Source: Pseudomonas bijieensis
GTDB taxonomy: Bacteria; Pseudomonadota; Gammaproteobacteria; Pseudomonadales; Pseudomonadaceae
Direction: 5' to 3'
DNA: 64,000 nucleotides
NCBI RefSeq assembly: GCF_013347965.1
Contig: NZ_CP048810.1
Span: forward strand, 2,914,001 to 2,978,000
Shown: piece by piece, positions 23,787 to 59,270 of the stretch
How the letters are laid out: every line of letters begins with the position of its first letter
Position numbering within the stretch: the first letter of the stretch is position 1
The notes under the pieces: generated by a model
The model's input: the letters and a program-made list of their open reading frames with translations, nothing else
What the model was told of the DNA's origin: nothing
The model's database searches: none
Program-made: the position numbers and the translations under genes

Positions 23787-24116
23787 TTATGGCTGCAATT
23801 TTTGTGGCGTCTCCTGCCCCATGCAACGCACCGCGCGCTTCTTCTCGTTGATCAGCACGCCGGTCAGGCCTTTCTGTTCGGTGTCGAACAACACCAGCAC
23901 GCCATCGATGCACTGGGCCACCTGCGGCGCCGGTTCCAGGGCGACTTTGTAGTCCTCGCCCGGCACGGTCTTGAGCATGGTGAATTCATTGAGCAGCAAC
24001 GCGTCCTCGGGTTTGGCGAAGTGCAGGTAGCCGTAGTACCAGAGCACCGCGACGGTGCCGAGGATGCTGCAGATACCGGTGATGATCAGGGGGATGGCGT
24101 TACGTTCTTCGCTCAT
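23787..24116 (-). CDS. Small inner-membrane protein of unknown function
   Basis: 109 residues: a short polar start (MSEERNAIP), one membrane helix (LIITGICSILGTVAVLWYYG, about 10-29) and a soluble periplasmic-looking domain with two Cys (APQVAQCIDGVLVLFD; KKRAVRCMGQE) that could form a disulphide. The start ATG overlaps the stop of the upstream hydrolase gene by four bases (ATGA), so the two are cotranslated. No family name recognised. Confidence 0.78.
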   Translation of the reverse strand: MSEERNAIPLIITGICSILGTVAVLWYYGYLHFAKPEDALLLNEFTMLKTVPGEDYKVALEPAPQVAQCIDGVLVLFDTEQKGLTGVLINEKKRAVRCMGQETPQKLQP

Positions 24117-25019
24117 TGCGGGCTCTCTGAAGATTCAACGGGTGATTTCGGATAATTCGGGACTTCGCCCAGGCGGCGCAGGCCGTCAAAGTGCTGGGGG
24201 TCGTCAAGGTAACGCAGCATCACTGTGCGCCAGACCGGGTCGGCGAATGTCTGCACATGTCCGCCGCGGGTCAGTTGCAGGACCCGCGGCGGCGGCGCAG
24301 CTTGATACAGACGGATGCCGTTGGAAAGAGGCACGATGGGATCATCCAGGCTGTGGTAGATCAATTTCGGTACGCCGGTCAATTGCGCAACGGAGGCAAT
24401 CGCGCTGTCACCGTCGGGCACCAGCCAGGACAGCGGCACCTGGAACGCCCAGGTCAGCCACGAAGTGCTCAGGGCGAAACGCCCGACGTCGCGATAGCTG
24501 GCCGGCACGCCATCGAGCACCAGGGCCTTGAGCTGCCGTTGGCGCTGGGGATGCTCGACCAGATAATGCACCGCCAGCGCGCCGCCCAGGCTCTGGCCGA
24601 GCAGTACCAGTGGCCTGCCTTGGACATCAGGAGATTGATCGAGCCATTTGAACGCGGCGTCGATGTCCTGATAAATCGCCGGCAGGCTCGGCTCGCCTTC
24701 GGACACGCCGTAACCACGGTAGTCGACCATCAACACCTGGTAACCACGCTCCGGCAACCACCAACTCCCACCCAGGTGCCAGGCCAGGTTGCCGCCATTG
24801 CCGTGCAGATGCAGCACCGTGCCCTTGACCTCCACGCCGGGTTTGACCGGCAGCCACCAACCACGCAGCTTGAGACCGTCGGCGGTGGTCAGGGTGACGT
24901 CGCGGTACTCTAGCCTGGCCCGCTCCGGGGTGAACGGCAGGCCGCGCTCGGGGGTAGAACAGCAGGGAGCTGCAACCGCTCAGGGCCAGCAGCAGGCAAA
25001 TGATGCCGAGGGTTCGCAT
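24113..25019 (-). pseudogene. Alpha/beta-hydrolase lipoprotein, frameshifted as sequenced
   Basis: The gene begins at ATG 25019 with a lipoprotein signal (GIICLLLALSGCSSLLFYP, lipobox LSGC) and continues in another frame as an alpha/beta hydrolase: oxyanion HLHGNGGNLAWHLGG, nucleophile elbow VLLGQSLGGALAVHY (catalytic Ser) and late acid/base region with YHSLDDPIVPLSNG and GGHVQTF (catalytic His). The two parts join if one G is removed from the GGGGG run at 24950-24954: the protein then reads FYPERGLPFTPERARLEYRD without a stop, giving about 301 residues. I cannot tell a real mutation from a base-call error. Its stop overlaps the next gene by four bases. Confidence 0.82.
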
Positions 25020-25060
25020 CCGGTGAAACCTCGCAAAATCAGAAGTTATAAACAGTCCCC

Positions 25061-25150
25061 CTGTGGGAGCGAGCCTGCTCGCGATAGCGGTCGGACATTC
25101 AACATCAATGTTGACTGGAACACCGCTATCGCGAGCAGGCTCGCTCCCAC
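25061..25150. repeat. REPIN (class A)
   Basis: CTGTGGGAGCGAGCCTGCTCGCGATAG and inverted CTATCGCGAGCAGGCTCGCTCCCAC. Between the start of the hydrolase gene and the end of the QEGLA-protein gene. Confidence 0.88.
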
Positions 25151-25174
25151 ATCTTTAACCGCATCGCATTGTGT

Positions 25175-26452
25175 TCAAAGGATGTTGGAATAATCCGCTT
25201 CGATCCGATCCAGGCTCAGGTGGTTCAGGAAGTTGGAGAAACACATCCAGGCCGACAGCGCGTTCATGTCGCGGAACTGCTCGGGCAGGTACTTGGGCGG
25301 CACGACCAGGCCTTCGTCCACCAGTTGCCGCAGGGTGCGCATGTCCTCAAGCGTGGTCTTGCCGCAGAACAGCAGCGGCACCTGTTCCAGCTTGCCCTTG
25401 CGCACGGCCAACTGAATGTAGTTGTAAACCATGATGAAGCCCTTGAGGTAGGACAAGTCTTTGGTAAATGGCAGGCCCGTCGGCACCGAGCCACGGAACA
25501 CCCGGCTGGCGTTACCGTAGCTTTCAGCCATTTCAAAGCCCTGCTCGCGGAAGAACTCGAAGATCTGCAGGAAATCGGCCCCCTCCTCCACCATATGAAT
25601 GGCGCGGGTGCGGTTGGTGAGTTTGCGCAGGCGACTGGGGTAGGAAGCGAAGGTGATGATTTCCATCAGGATCGCCAGGCCTTCCTGGGTCACGGTGGAT
25701 GAGGGCGGCCCCTTGGACAGGAAGGTGCAGATCGGTTGGTTCAGGCCGTTGAGGGTGGTGCCGACATGCACCAGCCCTTCGTGGACCTCCAGCGCCCGCA
25801 CGTCACGCTCGTTGAACATCGCATCGGTGCGGATCTTGATGTAGTCCGCCCCCGCCGCCGCATCGGCCACGATGCCATCGGACTCGAACACGCGGATGGT
25901 TTCCTCGGCTTCGCCGAACACCCGGTTGAGCCGGTGTTGCAGCAGGCTGACGGCGTCCTTGGCGGTGAGGATCTTCGGCTCGTCCTTCAGGTCGCCACGG
26001 CCATCGATGTTGTTCAGATAGTCGGACAGCATCAACCCCAGGTCTGCCAGGGTCGGGTCGCCGGCGTGGAACGCATCGGAAGCCGCACCGTACAGCTCCT
26101 GGGAAATCAGCCCGAAATCCTCGGTGCCGCGCGCTTCGAGCATGCGCACCACCATGCGGTATTCCTTGCACATGCGCCGCATGATCTGGCCGACCGGGTT
26201 GAACTGCCCGAGTTGGCGGGTGATGTCACGCTCGATGTTCTGGAACTCCAGCTTCACCTTGCTGGAATCGAAGGACAACGGCCGGTTGAGGTAATAGTCG
26301 CGGTCCACAGCGGGCATTTCCTTGCCCTTGGCCTTGAGGAATCCCTTACGGATGCTGTCATCCCATTTCACCGCGTCGAGAATGCGAATCGGCGTTTGCG
26401 CCAGCACAATGCGATCGGACAAGGTGCGTATCGTCTGCTGGTAATCGTCCAC
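25175..26452 (-). CDS. DUF1704/QEGLA-motif protein (putative metallo-carboxypeptidase fold)
   Basis: 425 residues starting at GTG (AGGAG six bases before). It carries HEGLVH at 224-229, which fits the unusual HExxxH zinc motif of the DUF1704 family, and QEGLA at 256-260, the motif that gives the bacterial group its name (flavohemoglobin expression-modulating QEGLA motif protein). The eukaryotic relatives (MATCAP) are tubulin tyrosine carboxypeptidases with this HExxxH site, so a peptidase activity is possible here; the bacterial substrate is unknown. No signal peptide, so cytoplasmic. The lipoprotein gene upstream ends 51 bases before. Confidence 0.83.
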   Translation of the reverse strand: MDDYQQTIRTLSDRIVLAQTPIRILDAVKWDDSIRKGFLKAKGKEMPAVDRDYYLNRPLSFDSSKVKLEFQNIERDITRQLGQFNPVGQIMRRMCKEYRMVVRMLEARGTEDFGLISQELYGAASDAFHAGDPTLADLGLMLSDYLNNIDGRGDLKDEPKILTAKDAVSLLQHRLNRVFGEAEETIRVFESDGIVADAAAGADYIKIRTDAMFNERDVRALEVHEGLVHVGTTLNGLNQPICTFLSKGPPSSTVTQEGLAILMEIITFASYPSRLRKLTNRTRAIHMVEEGADFLQIFEFFREQGFEMAESYGNASRVFRGSVPTGLPFTKDLSYLKGFIMVYNYIQLAVRKGKLEQVPLLFCGKTTLEDMRTLRQLVDEGLVVPPKYLPEQFRDMNALSAWMCFSNFLNHLSLDRIEADYSNIL

Positions 26453-26503
26453 CCGGAACTCCTGTGAAAAAACGTCCGCTTGTTGCTGTTATTGGGTTGT
26501 TGC

Positions 26504-27058
26504 TTATTGGGATTTGAGCAGCCGCTGGTAACGCACGGCCTCCGAGAACACATCGGAATTGGCCGGGTCGTCGAGGTAACTGAAGACCTTGTTCATGTCG
26601 CTGTCCACCAGCACGCCGTCGCCTTCTTCGCTCGGGCTCGGCTGGCCACTGAGGCGTTTCTGGTCGATGGCCTGGTTGATCTGCTCCAGGTCCAGGTTGT
26701 AGACCACCAGCTCCTGTTTATCGGTCAGTTCAAAACCGGCGATCACGAAATGCCCGCCATACCGTGCCGGCACCTTGGCCGACAGGTACCAGCGGCTGCC
26801 ATGACGGGAGACGGTCAGGGGAATCGCTTCGCGCTCCTGGGGCCTGGCCCGGAAGTAGCTGATGGCCTGGTAGCGGTGCTTGCCGACCTTCGTCAGCTCC
26901 AGGTTCAACGGTTCGCCCCAGGCATTGGTGCTGGTCCAGTGACCGAGCAGGCCCTTGGGCGCCGCTTCGCTCTCCGGCAACGGTGCCTTGAAGGACACCA
27001 GGCAGCCACTGAGCAACAGCAACGACACGGCCAGTACGGCGGCACGCCAGGCTTTCAT
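26504..27058 (-). CDS. Lipoprotein of unknown function
   Basis: 184 residues. Signal MKAWRAAVLAVSLLLL and lipobox LSGC (Cys19) predict a lipid anchor; the residues after Cys (LVS) give no inner-membrane Asp signal, so outer membrane is likely. The mature domain looks beta-rich (GHWTSTNAWGEPLNLELTKV; RWYLSAKVPARYGGHFVIAG) with a helical tail (DMNKVFSYLDDPANSDVFSE). No domain name recognised. It is 51 bases before the QEGLA gene and may share its transcript. Confidence 0.8.
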   Translation of the reverse strand: MKAWRAAVLAVSLLLLSGCLVSFKAPLPESEAAPKGLLGHWTSTNAWGEPLNLELTKVGKHRYQAISYFRARPQEREAIPLTVSRHGSRWYLSAKVPARYGGHFVIAGFELTDKQELVVYNLDLEQINQAIDQKRLSGQPSPSEEGDGVLVDSDMNKVFSYLDDPANSDVFSEAVRYQRLLKSQ

Positions 27059-27090
27059 TGGAACTCCCTATGGCACATGTTGCCTTGCCC

Positions 27091-27183
27091 TTGTGGCGAG
27101 GGAGCTTGCTCCCGCTTGAGTGCGCAGCACTCACAAAAAGGGGCCGCTGCGCAGCCCAGCGGGAGCAAGCTCCCTCGCCACAG
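27091..27183. repeat. REP pair, class B
   Basis: TTGTGGCGAGGGAGCTTGCT-CCCGCTTG and inverted AGCGGGAGCAAGCTCCCTCGCCACAG around about 40 bases that hold GAGTGCGCAGCACTC, itself a palindrome. Between a TetR gene's 3' end and the start of the lipoprotein gene. Confidence 0.85.
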
Positions 27184-27209
27184 GGACGGTGGTGGCCTCC
27201 ACAAAGGGA

Positions 27210-27926
27210 CTACACCGACGCCAGTACCAGGTGCATGTAGCGGGTCAGGATACCGAGCATATCTTCATCGGCTACCGGCTCGGCGCCATTGAGCAAGCCC
27301 TGATATTCCATCCGTCCGATAATCGCCGTCAACACTTTGGCATCCTGTTGCGGCTCGCGGGAGCCTAATACCTGGAAAAACTGACACGTGCCGTGCAGCA
27401 AAATCTGCTGGTGGGAACGCACCAACTCCGCCAGGCGCGGGTTGAGCAGCGCTTCCTGGCGAAAGGCCTGTTCGGCCATCAGGTACTCGCGGCGACTGTC
27501 CAGTTGGTGCTGTACATAGTCAGCGGTCATCCGGGCGATGTCGTCCGCCAGTTGCGAGCGTGATTGGGCGCTGCCGTCACCGTAGGCGACCATTTCCCGC
27601 AGCAGGCCTTCGTTGTTGGTCCACAGCTTGGCCATGAATGCCGCACTGCGTTCCACGTACTGGGCAAAGGTGTCGGTGAGCAGGTCATCGATGTCCTTGA
27701 AATAGTACGTGGTGGCCGACAGCGGCACGCCGGCTTCGGCAGCCACGGCGCGATGGCGTACGGCTCGCACGCCATCGCGCACCACAATGCGCATGGCCGC
27801 GTCGAGAATCTCCTGGCGACGCTGCTCACTGCCCTGTCGGCTGGCCTTGCGGCCCTGGTACTGAACACTTTCAGCGACAGCCGTGGCGACGCCCGCTGCA
27901 CCTTCTGAAGCCATTGCACGATTCAC
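27210..27926 (-). CDS. TetR-family transcriptional regulator
   Basis: 238 residues from a GTG (MNRAMASEG), chosen because AGGAAG is seven bases before it; an ATG four codons later (27914) is the alternative. The DNA-binding domain is at about 30-85: RRQEILDAAMRIVVRDGVRA, VRHRAVAAEAGVPLSATTYY and FKDIDDLLTDTF. The C-terminal ligand domain contains FFQVLGSREPQQDAKVLTAI. Target genes are unknown. It lies between lysS and the lipoprotein gene, the same neighbourhood as in P. aeruginosa as I recall. Confidence 0.87.
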   Translation of the reverse strand: MNRAMASEGAAGVATAVAESVQYQGRKASRQGSEQRRQEILDAAMRIVVRDGVRAVRHRAVAAEAGVPLSATTYYFKDIDDLLTDTFAQYVERSAAFMAKLWTNNEGLLREMVAYGDGSAQSRSQLADDIARMTADYVQHQLDSRREYLMAEQAFRQEALLNPRLAELVRSHQQILLHGTCQFFQVLGSREPQQDAKVLTAIIGRMEYQGLLNGAEPVADEDMLGILTRYMHLVLASV

Positions 27927-27987
27927 GACAGGTCTTCCTCTTTTTTTCAAAAGTAACCAATTGATACGTTTGTACCAGACAGGCAAT

Positions 27988-28015
27988 AAAAAGCCGCCCT
28001 TCCAGGCGGCTTTTT
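27988..28015 (-). terminator. Intrinsic terminator after lysS
   Basis: AAAAAGCCGCC-TTCCA-GGCGGCTTTTT (27988-28015): GC stem with runs on both sides. It starts 12 bases after the lysS stop on the minus strand and could also work in the other direction. Confidence 0.92.
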
Positions 28016-28026
28016 AGTTGAAACAC

Positions 28027-29529
28027 TTACGCTTGAGGCCGCATGTGCGGGAAGAGAATCACATCCCGGATCGACGGTGAGTTGGTCAACAACATCACCA
28101 GGCGATCGATGCCGATACCTTCACCAGCGGTCGGCGGCATGCCGTACTCCAGGGCACGCACGAAGTCGGCATCGTAGTGCATGGCTTCGTCGTCGCCGGC
28201 GTCCTTGTCGGCCACCTGGGCCATGAAGCGCTCGGCCTGGTCTTCGGCATCGTTGAGCTCGGAGTAGGCGTTGGCGATCTCGCGGCCACCGATGAACAGC
28301 TCGAAACGGTCGGTCACGCTAGGGTTCTCGTCGTTACGACGGGCCAGCGGCGACACTTCGAACGGGTACTGGGTGATGAAGTGCGGCTGTTCCAGCTTGT
28401 GCTCGACCAGCTCTTCGAAAATCATCACTTGCAGCTTGCCCAGGCCTTCGAAGCCGAGCACCTTGGCCCCGGCCTTCTTGGCGATGGCACGGGCCTTGTC
28501 GATGTCGTTCAGGTCAGCGGCGCTGATCTCGGGGTTGTACTTGAGGATCGAGTCGAACACCGAAAGGCGCACGAACGGTTCGCCGAAGTGGAACACCTTG
28601 TCGCCGTACGGCACGTCGGTGGTCCCGAGAACAAGCTGCGCCAGCTCGCGGAACAGCTCCTCGGTGAGGTCCATGTTGTCTTCGTAGTCGGCGTAGGCCT
28701 GGTAGAACTCGAGCATGGTGAACTCGGGGTTGTGCCGGGTCGAAACACCTTCGTTACGGAAGTTGCGGTTGATCTCGAAGACTTTCTCGAAGCCGCCGAC
28801 AACCAGGCGCTTGAGGTACAGCTCCGGCGCGATACGCAGGAACATTTCCATGTCCAGGGCGTTGTGGTGGGTCTCGAACGGCTTGGCCGCCGCGCCACCG
28901 GGGATGGTCTGCAGCATCGGCGTCTCGACTTCCAGGAAGTCGCGCTTCATCAGGAAGCTGCGGATGTGGGCGATGACTTGCGAGCGCACGCGGAACGTCT
29001 GGCGCACGTCTTCGTTGACGATCAGGTCGACGTAGCGCTGGCGATAGCGCTGCTCGGTGTCGGTCAGGCCGTGGTGCTTGTCCGGCAGTGGGCGCAGGGA
29101 CTTGGTCAGCAGGCGCACGCTGGTCATTTCGACGTACAGGTCACCCTTGCCGGAACGGGCCAGGGTACCTTCGGCGGCAATGATGTCACCCAGGTCCCAG
29201 GTCTTGACGGCGGCCAGGGTTTCTTCCGGCAGAGTCTTGCGGTTGACGTAGACCTGGATGCGCCCGGTCATGTCCTGGATCACCATGAACGAACCGCGAT
29301 TGAGCATGATGCGACCGGCCACCTTGACTGGAATCGCCGCCTCGGCCAGCTCTTCCTTGGTCTTGTCCGCGTACGTCTTCTGCAAGACGTCGCAGTAGGC
29401 GTCGCGGCGGAAGTCGTTGGGGAAGGCCTGGCCCTTGGCACGCTCGGCAGCAAGCTTTTCCTTGCGCAGGGCGATCAGGGAGTTTTCTTCCTGTTGCAGG
29501 GCTTGCGGGTCGAGTTCTAGGTCGCTCAT
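28027..29529 (-). CDS. lysS: Lysyl-tRNA synthetase (class II)
   Basis: 500 residues, the usual length. An N-terminal OB-fold anticodon domain (about 65-145, [20 protein letters not shown]) precedes the class II catalytic core. Motif 1 is [20 protein letters not shown], motif 2 is [20 protein letters not shown] and motif 3 is [15 protein letters not shown] near the C-terminus. It charges tRNA-Lys in the cytoplasm. It follows prfB with 110 bases between, as in many gammaproteobacteria where prfB-lysS form an operon. Confidence 0.97.
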
Positions 29530-29639
29530 GTCTTTAAGGATTCCATCACAGGTTCGTTGCCCCCGGCCCCGGGGCCGGAGTTTGCGGGCGAGCCGCGCTC
29601 CCTGGTGGAAGCGTGCCTGCCCGCCGCATGGGTGTCGCG

Positions 29640-30736
29640 TTACAGCCCTTGTTTGAGGCTGGCGATCAGGTATTCATCGATATCGCCGTCGAGCACCTTG
29701 TCGCAATCGCTGCGTTCGATGCTGGTACGCAGGTCCTTGATCCGCGAGGCATCGAGCACGTACGAACGGATCTGGTGACCCCAGCCGATATCCGACTTGG
29801 TGTCTTCCAGCGCCTGGGACGCCGCATTGCGCTTCTGCACTTCCTGCTCGTACAGGCGGGCCCGCAGCATCTTCATCGCGGTGTCTTTGTTGGCGTGCTG
29901 GGAACGCTCGTTCTGGCAGCTGACCACGGTGTTGGTCGGTACGTGGGTAATCCGTACGGCCGAGTCGGTGGTGTTAACGTGCTGGCCACCGGCCCCGGAG
30001 GAGCGGTAGGTATCGATGCGCAGGTCCGCCGGGTTGATCTCGATCTCGATGTTGTCATCGATTTCCGGCGAGACGAACACCGCCGAGAACGAGGTATGGC
30101 GACGGTTGCCAGAGTCGAACGGGCTCTTGCGCACCAGGCGGTGCACGCCGATCTCGGTACGCAGCCAGCCAAAGGCATATTCGCCCTTGATGTGCACGGT
30201 GGCGCCCTTGATCCCGGCGACTTCACCGGCCGACAGCTCCATGATGGTGGCGTCGAAACCGCGTTTGTCAGCCCAGCGCAGGTACATGCGCAGCAGGATG
30301 TTGGCCCAGTCCTGGGCCTCGGTGCCGCCGGAACCGGCCTGGATGTCCAGGTAGGCGTTGTTCATGTCCATCTCGCCGCTGAACATGCGACGGAATTCCA
30401 GCTTGGCGAGGTTCTCGTCAAGGCGTGTCAGCTCGGCGACGACATCGCCGACCGCACCTTCATCGTTCTCTTCGACAGCCATGTCCAGCAGGTCGCGGCA
30501 ATCGGCCAGGCCGCTGGACAGTTCATCCAGGGTCTCGACGATCTGCGCCAGCGCGGAACGCTCGCGGCCCAGTTCCTGGGCGTACGAAGGGTTGTTCCAG
30601 ACATTCGGATCTTCAAGCTCGCGATTGACTTCGGTCAGGCGCTCATGCTTTTTGATCGTAGTCAAAGATACCCCCGAATAGTTTCGGAGCGCTCGGACAG
30701 GTCCTTGATGGTGTTAAGGATCGGGTTGATTTCCAT
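29640..30736 (-). CDS. prfB: Peptide chain release factor 2, programmed +1 frameshift plus an extra base as sequenced
   Basis: RF2 ends translation at UGA and UAA. Frame zero starts at ATG 30736 ([20 protein letters not shown]), has the internal Shine-Dalgarno-like GGGGGTAT and reaches CTT-TGA at codon 25 (TGA at 30662-30664), the classic autoregulatory +1 site. After the shift the text reads DYDQKA and then stops, because a run of five A (minus strand; T 30649-30653) has one base too many. With four A it would read [13 protein letters not shown] and give 364 residues, the normal length. GGQ loop is [17 protein letters not shown]. Since prfB is essential the extra base is probably a sequencing error. 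Confidence 0.93.
30662..30677 (-). promoter_or_regulatory. prfB programmed frameshift element
   Basis: On the minus strand CGGGGGTATCTTTGAC: a GGGGG Shine-Dalgarno-like stretch three bases before the slippery CTT-TGA. High RF2 gives termination at the in-frame TGA and low RF2 gives the +1 shift. Confidence 0.9.
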
Positions 30737-31040
30737 GGCGGGCAGCACTCGTTGGCGAACTTTTGAAAGCCGGCGAGTATAACGTAATCAAGCGCCAGCG
30801 GCAGCCCGCCTGGCGGCTTTAGGGGCAATGAGCCTCAGGGGGACGCTGCACAATACCCCTGTGGCGAGGGGATTTATCCCCGCTGGGCTGCGAAGCAGCC
30901 CTAAAAACCCGACAACTCGGTGTGCCAGGCAAATTGAGTTGACTGTATTTGGGGTTGCTGCGCAGCCCAGCGGGGATAAATCCCCTCGCCACAATAACCC
31001 CCTCAGCCACAAAGGCGTCCCAGTCGACATCCAGGGTGAT
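30737..31040. other. 304-base region between prfB and wspR
   Basis: Contains the presumed prfB promoter next to 30737 (no clear -35/-10 identified) and a class B REP pair. No gene is supported here. Confidence 0.5.
30860..30993. repeat. REP pair, class B
   Basis: GTGGCGAGGGGATTTATCCCCGCTGGGCTGCG and inverted CGCAGCCCAGCGGGGATAAATCCCCTCGCCAC around about 70 bases. The longest pair of its class in the window, between wspR (3' end) and prfB (5' end). Confidence 0.87.
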
Positions 31041-32043
31041 CTATTCAACCCCCACCCGATTGCGCCCACTGTGCTTGGCCACGTACAGCCCCTTGTCCGC
31101 CGCCGAGATCAATTGCCGGCTATCGCTACCCTGCTGTGGGGTAAAGGTCGAGACGCCGATGCTGATAGTCAGGTTCTCGCCGCCGTCGGGCGTGGCGTGG
31201 GGGGATTTTCAGGGCGACGACGTTCTGGCGCAGTTTCTCGGCCATCAGCCGGGCGCCGCCAGGCGAGGTGCCGGGCAGTACCAAGGCAAACTCTTCGCCG
31301 CCGTAGCGGGCCGGCAAGTCGGACGGACGGCTGCACGCCTCGCGGATCGCCGTGGCGACCTTGCGCAAGGCCTCGTCGCCCTCCAGGTGACCGAAGTTGT
31401 CGTTGTAGGACTTGAAGTAATCCACGTCGATCATCAGCAGCGACAATTGACTCTGGTCGCGCATCGCCCTGCGCCATTCCAGCTCCAGGTACTCGTCGAA
31501 GTGCCGGCGATTGGACAGCCCGGTCAGGCCATCGGAGTTCATCAGGCGTTGCAGCACCAGGTTGGTGTCGAGCAGTTGCTGCTGGCTGACCCGCAGCGCG
31601 CGATAGGCCGCGTCGCGCTGCAACAGCATCATGTAGGAACGCGAGTGATAGCGGATGCGCGCCACCAGTTCGATGTTGTCCGGCAACTTGACCAGATAGT
31701 CGTTGGCCCCGGCGGCAAACGCCGCGCTCTTGACCAGCGGGTCCTCCTTGGTGGACAGGACGATGATCGGGATATCACGGGTGGCCGGATGGTTACGGTA
31801 CTCGCGCACCAGGCTCAGGCCATCGAGGCCAGGCATCACCAAATCCTGGAGAATCACCGTCGGCTTGATGCGAACCGCGTGGGCGATGGCCTGGTGCGGG
31901 TCGGCGCAGAAGTGGAAGTCGATGTTTTCTTCATTCGACAGCCCGCGCCGCACCGCTTCGCCGATCATCGCCTGGTCGTCGACGAGCAAGACCATGGCGG
32001 CGTTCTCATCGCGCTTGAATTCGTCGAGCTGCAGATCATTCAT
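31041..32043 (-). pseudogene. wspR: Diguanylate cyclase response regulator WspR, frameshifted near its end as sequenced
   Basis: Output of the Wsp surface-sensing pathway: phosphorylated by WspE it makes c-di-GMP and promotes biofilm and wrinkly-colony growth. The receiver domain has VDD at 21-23 and phospho-Asp67 ([14 protein letters not shown]). The GGDEF domain contains [18 protein letters not shown], the inhibitory RxxD site (RPSD) and the active GGEEF near residue 248. At about residue 280 a run of six G (31199-31204) shifts the frame and the reading ends early (305 residues, garbled tail). Removing one G restores [10 protein letters not shown] ... KGLYVAKHSGRNRVGVE, 333 residues, ending at 31041. 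Confidence 0.88.
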
Positions 32044-57825: not shown

Positions 57826-59196
57826 TCAAGCCATGAACCTGTCGCAACGGCGCAAACGCCGCCCGACATCGGACCAGCCCCCCAGGATGCCGCGCAATTG
57901 CCCATCGGCCCCATAGAAAGGCACCGACCAATGATAGATTTCCCGCAATTGGCCGCTGAACATCAATTGCCGGTCGAAGAACCGAGACTGGCCAGTGCGC
58001 AATTGCTCCATCACCTCCCCATGCAGCAACTGCGCAGTGGCTGGCGGGAATGCTGCCGAATCCGTCAGCCGCGTGCCCCGAAGCTTTTCGAAGCGGGTCG
58101 CAAACTGGTCCTCGTAGCTTTTGTTGCACATGATCAGGCGCCCCTCCAGATCACGGATGAAAATCGGGTCGGGAATGGCATCCATCAAGGCCCGCTGGAG
58201 CATCAACTGGTCCTTGAGAACCGCTTCGGCCTTGAGGCGTTGATCGATCTGAATCTGCAGGCGGCGGTTCCACAGCAGGGACAAGAGGCCAAAGACCACG
58301 ACCACGGTCACACACCAGTAACCCCATCGAGACAGCCGCTCCCAGATCGATGGCGCCTGGACCGGCGTAATGCCGGCCATCCACTTGGTGCGCAGCGCGC
58401 GCATGTCCTCGGCCGGAAAAGCTTCCAAGGCTTTATTCAAGATGCTCAACAGCGCGGACAGGTCCTGGCGTACCGCCAGGTAGTCCGGTTCCCACTTGCC
58501 CTCGAGGCCGCTGCCTACCTGCAATTGCCCGGCTGGATAGAGATGCACCCCGGTTTCATTTTCGATGGTGGCATAGGCTTCCCGGCTCTCTACCAGCGCC
58601 CGCGCCTCACCATAGGTCTTGGTCGTGCGCAATTTGATCGCCGGGTAATCGCGCCTGATTTCCGCTTCCAATGCATGCCGTGCCGGCAATGCCAGGACCT
58701 TCCCTTCAAGCTGCTCCAGCGAATGAAGAGACGATTCCCCGTCACGGCCGACGAATACCCAGCCGGAACCGCCGAATGCATGACTGAAACTCAGAAAATC
58801 CCTACGTTCTTCATTCATCGCCAGCAGGGTCGTCATGTCGGCCTCGCCATTCTCCAGCATCGTCAGCAACTCGCCGGGGGAGAACGACTCCCGATGCACG
58901 AACTCAAGGCCGGTCATTTGCGCGATGCGCTGGAGAATGTCGTGGTTCAGTCCGTTCCACTGCCCCTGTTCATTCTTGAACAGGTACAACGGAAACTGCA
59001 TCGTCGCCACGATGACCCTGGGGTTCTCCTTGATCCACTTCAATTCCTGCGCATCCAGCATCAGGCGCTCGCCAGGATTGAACGGCGGCGTTTCGAAAGC
59101 CGCCAACTGCGCCGCGTTCCCCCCCTGCGCCGAGTACATCAGCGCCAGGCCCATTACCCAGCCCAAGGCGGGCTTGCCTTTGATAAAAAACGACAT
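57826..59196 (-). CDS. Periplasmic-binding/PAS sensor protein lacking a kinase domain
   Basis: 456 residues with the N-terminal half of a BvgS-type sensor. It has a signal peptide (KGKPALGWVMGLALMYSAQG), a periplasmic solute-binding (SBP3) domain at about 50-275 (VIVATMQFPLYLFKNEQGQW; FLSFSHAFGGSGWVFVGRDG), one TM helix at 291-309 (WGYWCVTVVVVFGLLSLLW) and a PAS domain at 330-445 (AIPDPIFIRDLEGRLIMCNK). Family members continue into histidine kinase and receiver domains; here the frame ends at WSDVGRRLRRCDRFMA and no other frame encodes a kinase before the next gene. The start was set at the second ATG (59196) because AGGA is seven bases before it. Confidence 0.8.
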   Translation of the reverse strand: MSFFIKGKPALGWVMGLALMYSAQGGNAAQLAAFETPPFNPGERLMLDAQELKWIKENPRVIVATMQFPLYLFKNEQGQWNGLNHDILQRIAQMTGLEFVHRESFSPGELLTMLENGEADMTTLLAMNEERRDFLSFSHAFGGSGWVFVGRDGESSLHSLEQLEGKVLALPARHALEAEIRRDYPAIKLRTTKTYGEARALVESREAYATIENETGVHLYPAGQLQVGSGLEGKWEPDYLAVRQDLSALLSILNKALEAFPAEDMRALRTKWMAGITPVQAPSIWERLSRWGYWCVTVVVVFGLLSLLWNRRLQIQIDQRLKAEAVLKDQLMLQRALMDAIPDPIFIRDLEGRLIMCNKSYEDQFATRFEKLRGTRLTDSAAFPPATAQLLHGEVMEQLRTGQSRFFDRQLMFSGQLREIYHWSVPFYGADGQLRGILGGWSDVGRRLRRCDRFMA

Positions 59197-59270
59197 CTGC
59201 ATTTCCTTCGAGATGACTCGCCCGTTCCTCCAAGGGCGAAACCCGACCAGTTTGGCATGCAGAAACAAGA

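Follow-up and report, generated by a model that had tools for sequence, protein, structure and literature searches.

Single-base homopolymer expansions in a hydrolase gene, prfB, and wspR of Pseudomonas bijieensis as very probable consensus errors of the assembly

Residual errors in homopolymer length are usual in bacterial assemblies made from long reads only, where they frameshift genes, according to the parts of PMC8812927 drawn on here. For P. syringae, the portion of PMC12007338 used describes long-read assemblies with more deletions than insertions. Real changes in run length are described as well: Table 1 of PMC13245932, of which an incomplete text is cited here, gives 14 isolates of evolved P. 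fluorescens with rsmA G6 to G7. One of the genes considered below, prfB, which encodes the release factor RF2, has a programmed +1 frameshift site composed of GGGGG, CUU, and UGA (parts of PMC12421855 and PMC13245932). In the same parts of PMC12421855, some release-factor pseudogenes are regarded as possible sequencing errors, a question that is left open there too.

The window analyzed here is a stretch of 64,000 nucleotides of the P. bijieensis contig NZ_CP048810.1 (positions 2,914,001 to 2,978,000), taken from a single-contig genome of 6.73 Mb that is 99.99% complete. The initial annotation had placed three frame-breaking homopolymers at 24950-24954, 30649-30653, and 31199-31204. A script check of the coordinates finds them there, and reading of the open reading frames confirms that a hydrolase lipoprotein gene, prfB, and wspR are each split into two frames by their own run. 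The features are as follows, G010 and G279 being two relatives used for comparison.

24113..25019, minus strand: alpha/beta-hydrolase lipoprotein gene, in two frames (ATG frame from 25019; 240-aa frame at 24113-24835); hydrolase families are matched in the G010 homologue
24950..24954, plus strand: G5 run, frame break of the hydrolase gene, one base longer than in G010 and G279
29640..30736, minus strand: prfB (RF2), with the zero frame at 30736-30662 and the RF2 body at 29640-30665 in the third frame; TIGR00020
30662..30675, minus strand: programmed +1 shift site of prfB, intact (GGGGG, TATCTT, UGA), with a UUG codon overlapping the UGA
30649..30653, plus strand: T5 run (A5 in the gene), frame break of prfB, one base longer than in 139/139 matches
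31044..32043, minus strand: wspR, encoding a response regulator with a GGDEF domain, split over two frames; its GGDEF match ends at profile position 120 of 161
31199..31204, plus strand: G6 run, frame break of wspR, one base longer than in G010 and G279

These breaks resemble the residual homopolymer indels of long-read assemblies, with one-base errors in short runs and frames broken at many places in one genome. Comparison with close Pseudomonas genomes, as the initial annotation had proposed, finds the relatives' runs mostly one base shorter at all three sites. The protein lengths that it had expected after deletion of one base (about 301, 364, and 333 residues) are indeed those of the families, as detailed below.

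In prfB, the shift site (GGGGG, CUU, UGA) is intact, as in the known programmed +1 frameshift, and the zero frame of 24 codons closes at the programmed UGA. Located 9-13 bases past this UGA, the extra base, unlike the shift itself, forms no part of the mechanism and is not compensated by it. The +1 frame past the UGA has only 6 open codons in the window, and the RF2 body of 341 codons, which scores 487.7 bits against the TIGR00020 prfB profile (cut-off 370), lies in the third frame. In all 24 genus genomes and all five order-level genomes examined, by contrast, the programmed shift leads into an open RF2 frame of 340 codons, which in the genus follows the 24 codons of the zero frame and gives the expected length. 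From the coordinates of the matches listed, prfB is exactly one base shorter than in the window in 139 of 139 match rows, representing 138 other genus genomes. A local alignment around the run gives the same difference in 111 of 112 rows (some genomes contributing more than one row, as also in the local alignments of the other two genes), the one equal row being divergent. We searched the genome for a second RF2 and found none, the sole other match having 39% identity and presumably being RF1.

In the hydrolase gene, which measures 907 bases in the window vs 906 in G010, the ATG at 25019 that begins the signal peptide is out of register with the catalytic frame of 240 aa (24113-24835), the split falling shortly past the signal peptide. 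Local alignment of the run yields 57 rows, with 47 one base shorter, one equal, one one base longer, and eight that do not cover the site.

The wspR open reading frame at 31126-32043 encodes 305 aa and departs from the family frame after about residue 281, the last 55 residues being in another frame, so that the end of the GGDEF domain is lost (profile positions 2-120 of 161 matched). The usual length of WspR is 333 aa, found in 116 of 120 listed homologues, the others having 290, 290, 311, and 334 aa. In the local alignment of 62 rows, 43 are one base shorter, 13 are two bases longer, which gives the same frame, four have other lengths, and two are uncovered; the normal frame is thus present in 56 rows. 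All 29 genus loci that were fetched have the one-shorter, normal frame over 437 bases. Two of the 120 listed WspR, P0002 and P0003 (on contigs of 6.56 and 6.61 Mb), lose the frame where the window does, and their protein sequences suggest one base fewer rather than one more; the site may be prone to mutation or to error.

Two other features of the window were noted. The spacer between prfB and wspR holds a repeat at 30855-31011 with inverted arms, REPIN-like by eye, for which this genome contains at least 79 other match rows, many places being entered on both strands. An open reading frame at 57826-59268, sensor-like by eye (480 aa), ends early without a kinase part, and its G010 counterpart is about as short.

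The breaks extend beyond the window. We aligned 1.024 Mb around it with 1.04 Mb of G010 (697 kb aligned, 88% identity) and scanned for uncompensated frame changes within G010 genes, requiring protein conservation on both sides. This returned 27 entries, of which 17 were kept by hand and 10 dropped; prfB, which the programmed shift hides from the scan, was added by hand, for a total of 18. These 18 gene-internal breaks, specific to this genome, consist of 17 one-base gains and one two-base gain. All of the extra bases fall within homopolymers of 4-7 bases or immediately next to them, although at some sites a substitution relative to G010 blurs the exact position, and at -151441 (window coordinates, here and below) the base is possibly beside the run. 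At each of the 18 sites, the run-length difference from G010 and from G279 breaks a conserved frame, the pattern taken here as the mark of an assembly error. The mirror scan for changes specific to G010 gave 10 entries with two homopolymer expansions, both in one gene. The excess of 18 kept breaks over two in G010 upholds the initial reading of the three runs as homopolymer errors in the assembly, for which the initial annotation had relied on prfB as an essential gene.

The gene with the two G010 expansions lies opposite about -421.2 and -420.8 kb and has two T runs one base longer than here; it is either a pseudogene or contains assembly errors of G010. The other mirror entries were set aside: some are complex or close to a gene end, 254079 is included in the count for this genome, and -246691 is a difference outside runs. 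Outside the window, at about 258.4-260.7 kb (region L248), three neighboring genes together carry four extra-base breaks in 2.3 kb; their G010 homologues match a PepSY/flavodoxin reductase, PhoD, and a fructose PTS IIBC.

A stricter whole-gene scan gave 42 frame changes, 19 of them coding-like, including 14 of the 18. Its other five were rejected: -458847 (a T-run +1 flanked by few codons on one side), -97274, 67983, and 232074 (longer or multi-gap), and 416162, where clustered gaps add up to a net -1 amid good two-sided conservation, with no run contraction. Taken as a single-base loss, 416162 counts against a one-sided pattern of gains. Nevertheless, none of the net single-base losses raised (four of the 27 in the first scan, one in the stricter scan) is a clean run contraction that breaks a gene. 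Those dropped from the 27 are 39458 and -273661, near gene ends, 40396, with several gaps, and -107615, which offsets -107653 (+1) 38 bases away. Also dropped were -230122 and 226519 (+1, but no run expansion with good two-sided conservation), 3075 (an 11-base insertion at a gene start), -98780 (near a gene start), and 196352 (a multi-gap cluster). On re-reading, -98780 and 196352, which are excluded from the 18, resemble further one-base expansions, in genes that look by eye like a cold-shock protein and HPr. An earlier indel scan had flagged 28 G010 genes, mostly through gene-edge effects, and was superseded by the scans with two-sided conservation. The tblastn split test also flagged the adk (about 18.6 kb) and dsbC (63.05 kb) regions of the window, which were dropped because the frame change occurs upstream of the family-matching portion of the protein.

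One of the breaks lies in tilS, at a T run of six that lies 33.8 kb ahead of the window, at about 2,880,222 in the genome. By tblastn, the PP-loop part and the remainder of tilS are in different frames in this genome, the identity of the gene being taken from its G010 homologue. A search of the genome for a spare tilS found no full-strength match, the only other family match scoring 62.7 bits vs a cut-off of 93.6. Both prfB and tilS are tabulated as essential for Enterobacteriaceae in the part of PMC11481867 used here, which suggests that they are probably essential in this species as well. Across the roughly 1 Mb of the 6.73 Mb that was examined (697 kb aligned), breaks occur regardless of gene function, prfB and tilS included. 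That two probably essential genes are broken alike is the strongest argument for error.

The rate of 18 breaks in 697 kb corresponds to 25.8 per Mb and, by extrapolation, to about 174 genome-wide. The sites are also clustered: four gaps between neighbors are below 1 kb vs 0.41 expected (P 0.0004, 20,000 simulations), and six are below 7 kb vs 1.95 expected (P 0.005). When only one event per gene is counted, two gaps are below 1 kb vs 0.33 expected (P 0.04), which weakens the case for error. Such clusters would be in keeping with locally reduced read depth or quality.

The extra bases are absent from the second relative, G279 (92% identical to this genome over 368 kb, in stretches picked around the known sites), at all 18 kept sites. 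At three of them the total length difference is not -1, owing to the two-base gain at -747 and to other gaps near -360799 and 258855. Within these stretches, we then counted private changes in runs of at least 4 bases that are clean in all three genomes (n=798). This genome has 11 longer runs (ten +1, one +2) and two shorter (both -1), G010 has eight longer (six +1, one +2, one +4) and five shorter (all -1), and G279 has three of each. Only six of the 18 sites enter this count; at the others, a relative has a substitution within the run or the run is not clean. Among the clean non-coding runs, the private changes are six longer and one shorter in this genome, five and four in G010, and three and three in G279, where one of the six expansions is the hydrolase site, classed as non-coding by mistake owing to its broken frame. 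Run 59239, shorter than in both relatives, lies upstream of a likely gene start. The three-way count agrees in direction with the frame-break scan, with a modest, smaller excess, and this smaller excess counts against the error reading. So does the direction of the changes: in the parts of PMC12007338 used here, deletions outnumber insertions in P. syringae long-read assemblies, whereas the kept breaks here are all insertions, a nearly insertion-only pattern that is unusual for such errors.

Real mutations would have to account for the same data. The wspR break, and perhaps those in other dispensable genes, might be true slippage mutations from culture or nature, with prfB and tilS as errors. 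The departure of P0002 and P0003 from the frame at the same place agrees with this, as do the real one-base G-run expansions documented for P. fluorescens SBW25 in the cited part of PMC13245932, and the wspR break, viewed by itself, could be a real mutation. The likeness to the rsmA expansions in that text, however, ends with the one-base growth of short G runs, since rsmA G6 to G7 was selected in single clones and in a dispensable gene, while here many genes, including two that are probably essential, are changed together. Changes of one uniform kind strike prfB and tilS too, the normal wspR frame is found in 29/29 fetched genus loci, and the genomes of P0002 and P0003, known from protein sequences alone, may be mis-called as well, so that we consider true slippage in wspR unlikely. 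It is more doubtful still that the prfB insertion is real and that RF2 starts at the UUG overlapping the internal UGA, thereby bypassing the programmed shift. The frame opened by the insertion does run for 341 codons, and the spacing of 5 bases in GGGGG-TATCT-TTG would suit a Shine-Dalgarno start. GGGGG would then be a true Shine-Dalgarno sequence, the frameshift would have been replaced in this lineage, and an unregulated RF2 lacking its first 24 residues would be made, a scenario to which we give very little credence. Against it, the insertion occurs in 0/139 prfB matches (138 other genus genomes), the product would lack those 24 residues, the other breaks would be left unexplained, and the viable prfB changes in the part of PMC13245932 used involve losses ahead of the UGA rather than gains behind it.

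The many run changes seen across the aligned 697 kb could also be expected of a true mutator strain that has accumulated run expansions. Yet both mutS and mutL are intact, matching almost the entire length of their profiles without internal stops, so that a classical mutator is not indicated; probably essential genes are struck, and gene-internal run contractions are hardly seen. We regard a mutator as extremely improbable. The tilS break, the clustering, and the intact mutS and mutL further bear out the initial reading of assembly errors. We hold with high confidence that the three extra bases are consensus errors, of base calling or assembly, in which short homopolymers were counted one base too long. 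From the assembly, rather than from inspection of the reads, we infer that sequencing, not mutation, produced the extra bases. The three errors would be part of a larger set of over-calls in this single-contig assembly.

As biology, the broken frames are very probably not a real feature of the organism. In the living strain, the hydrolase, prfB, and wspR are most probably intact, and RF2 would be made via the usual programmed +1 frameshift. With about 26 breaks per Mb aligned, an annotation pipeline would call many intact genes pseudogenes, probably essential ones among them, and claims of gene loss from this assembly are not to be trusted without the reads.
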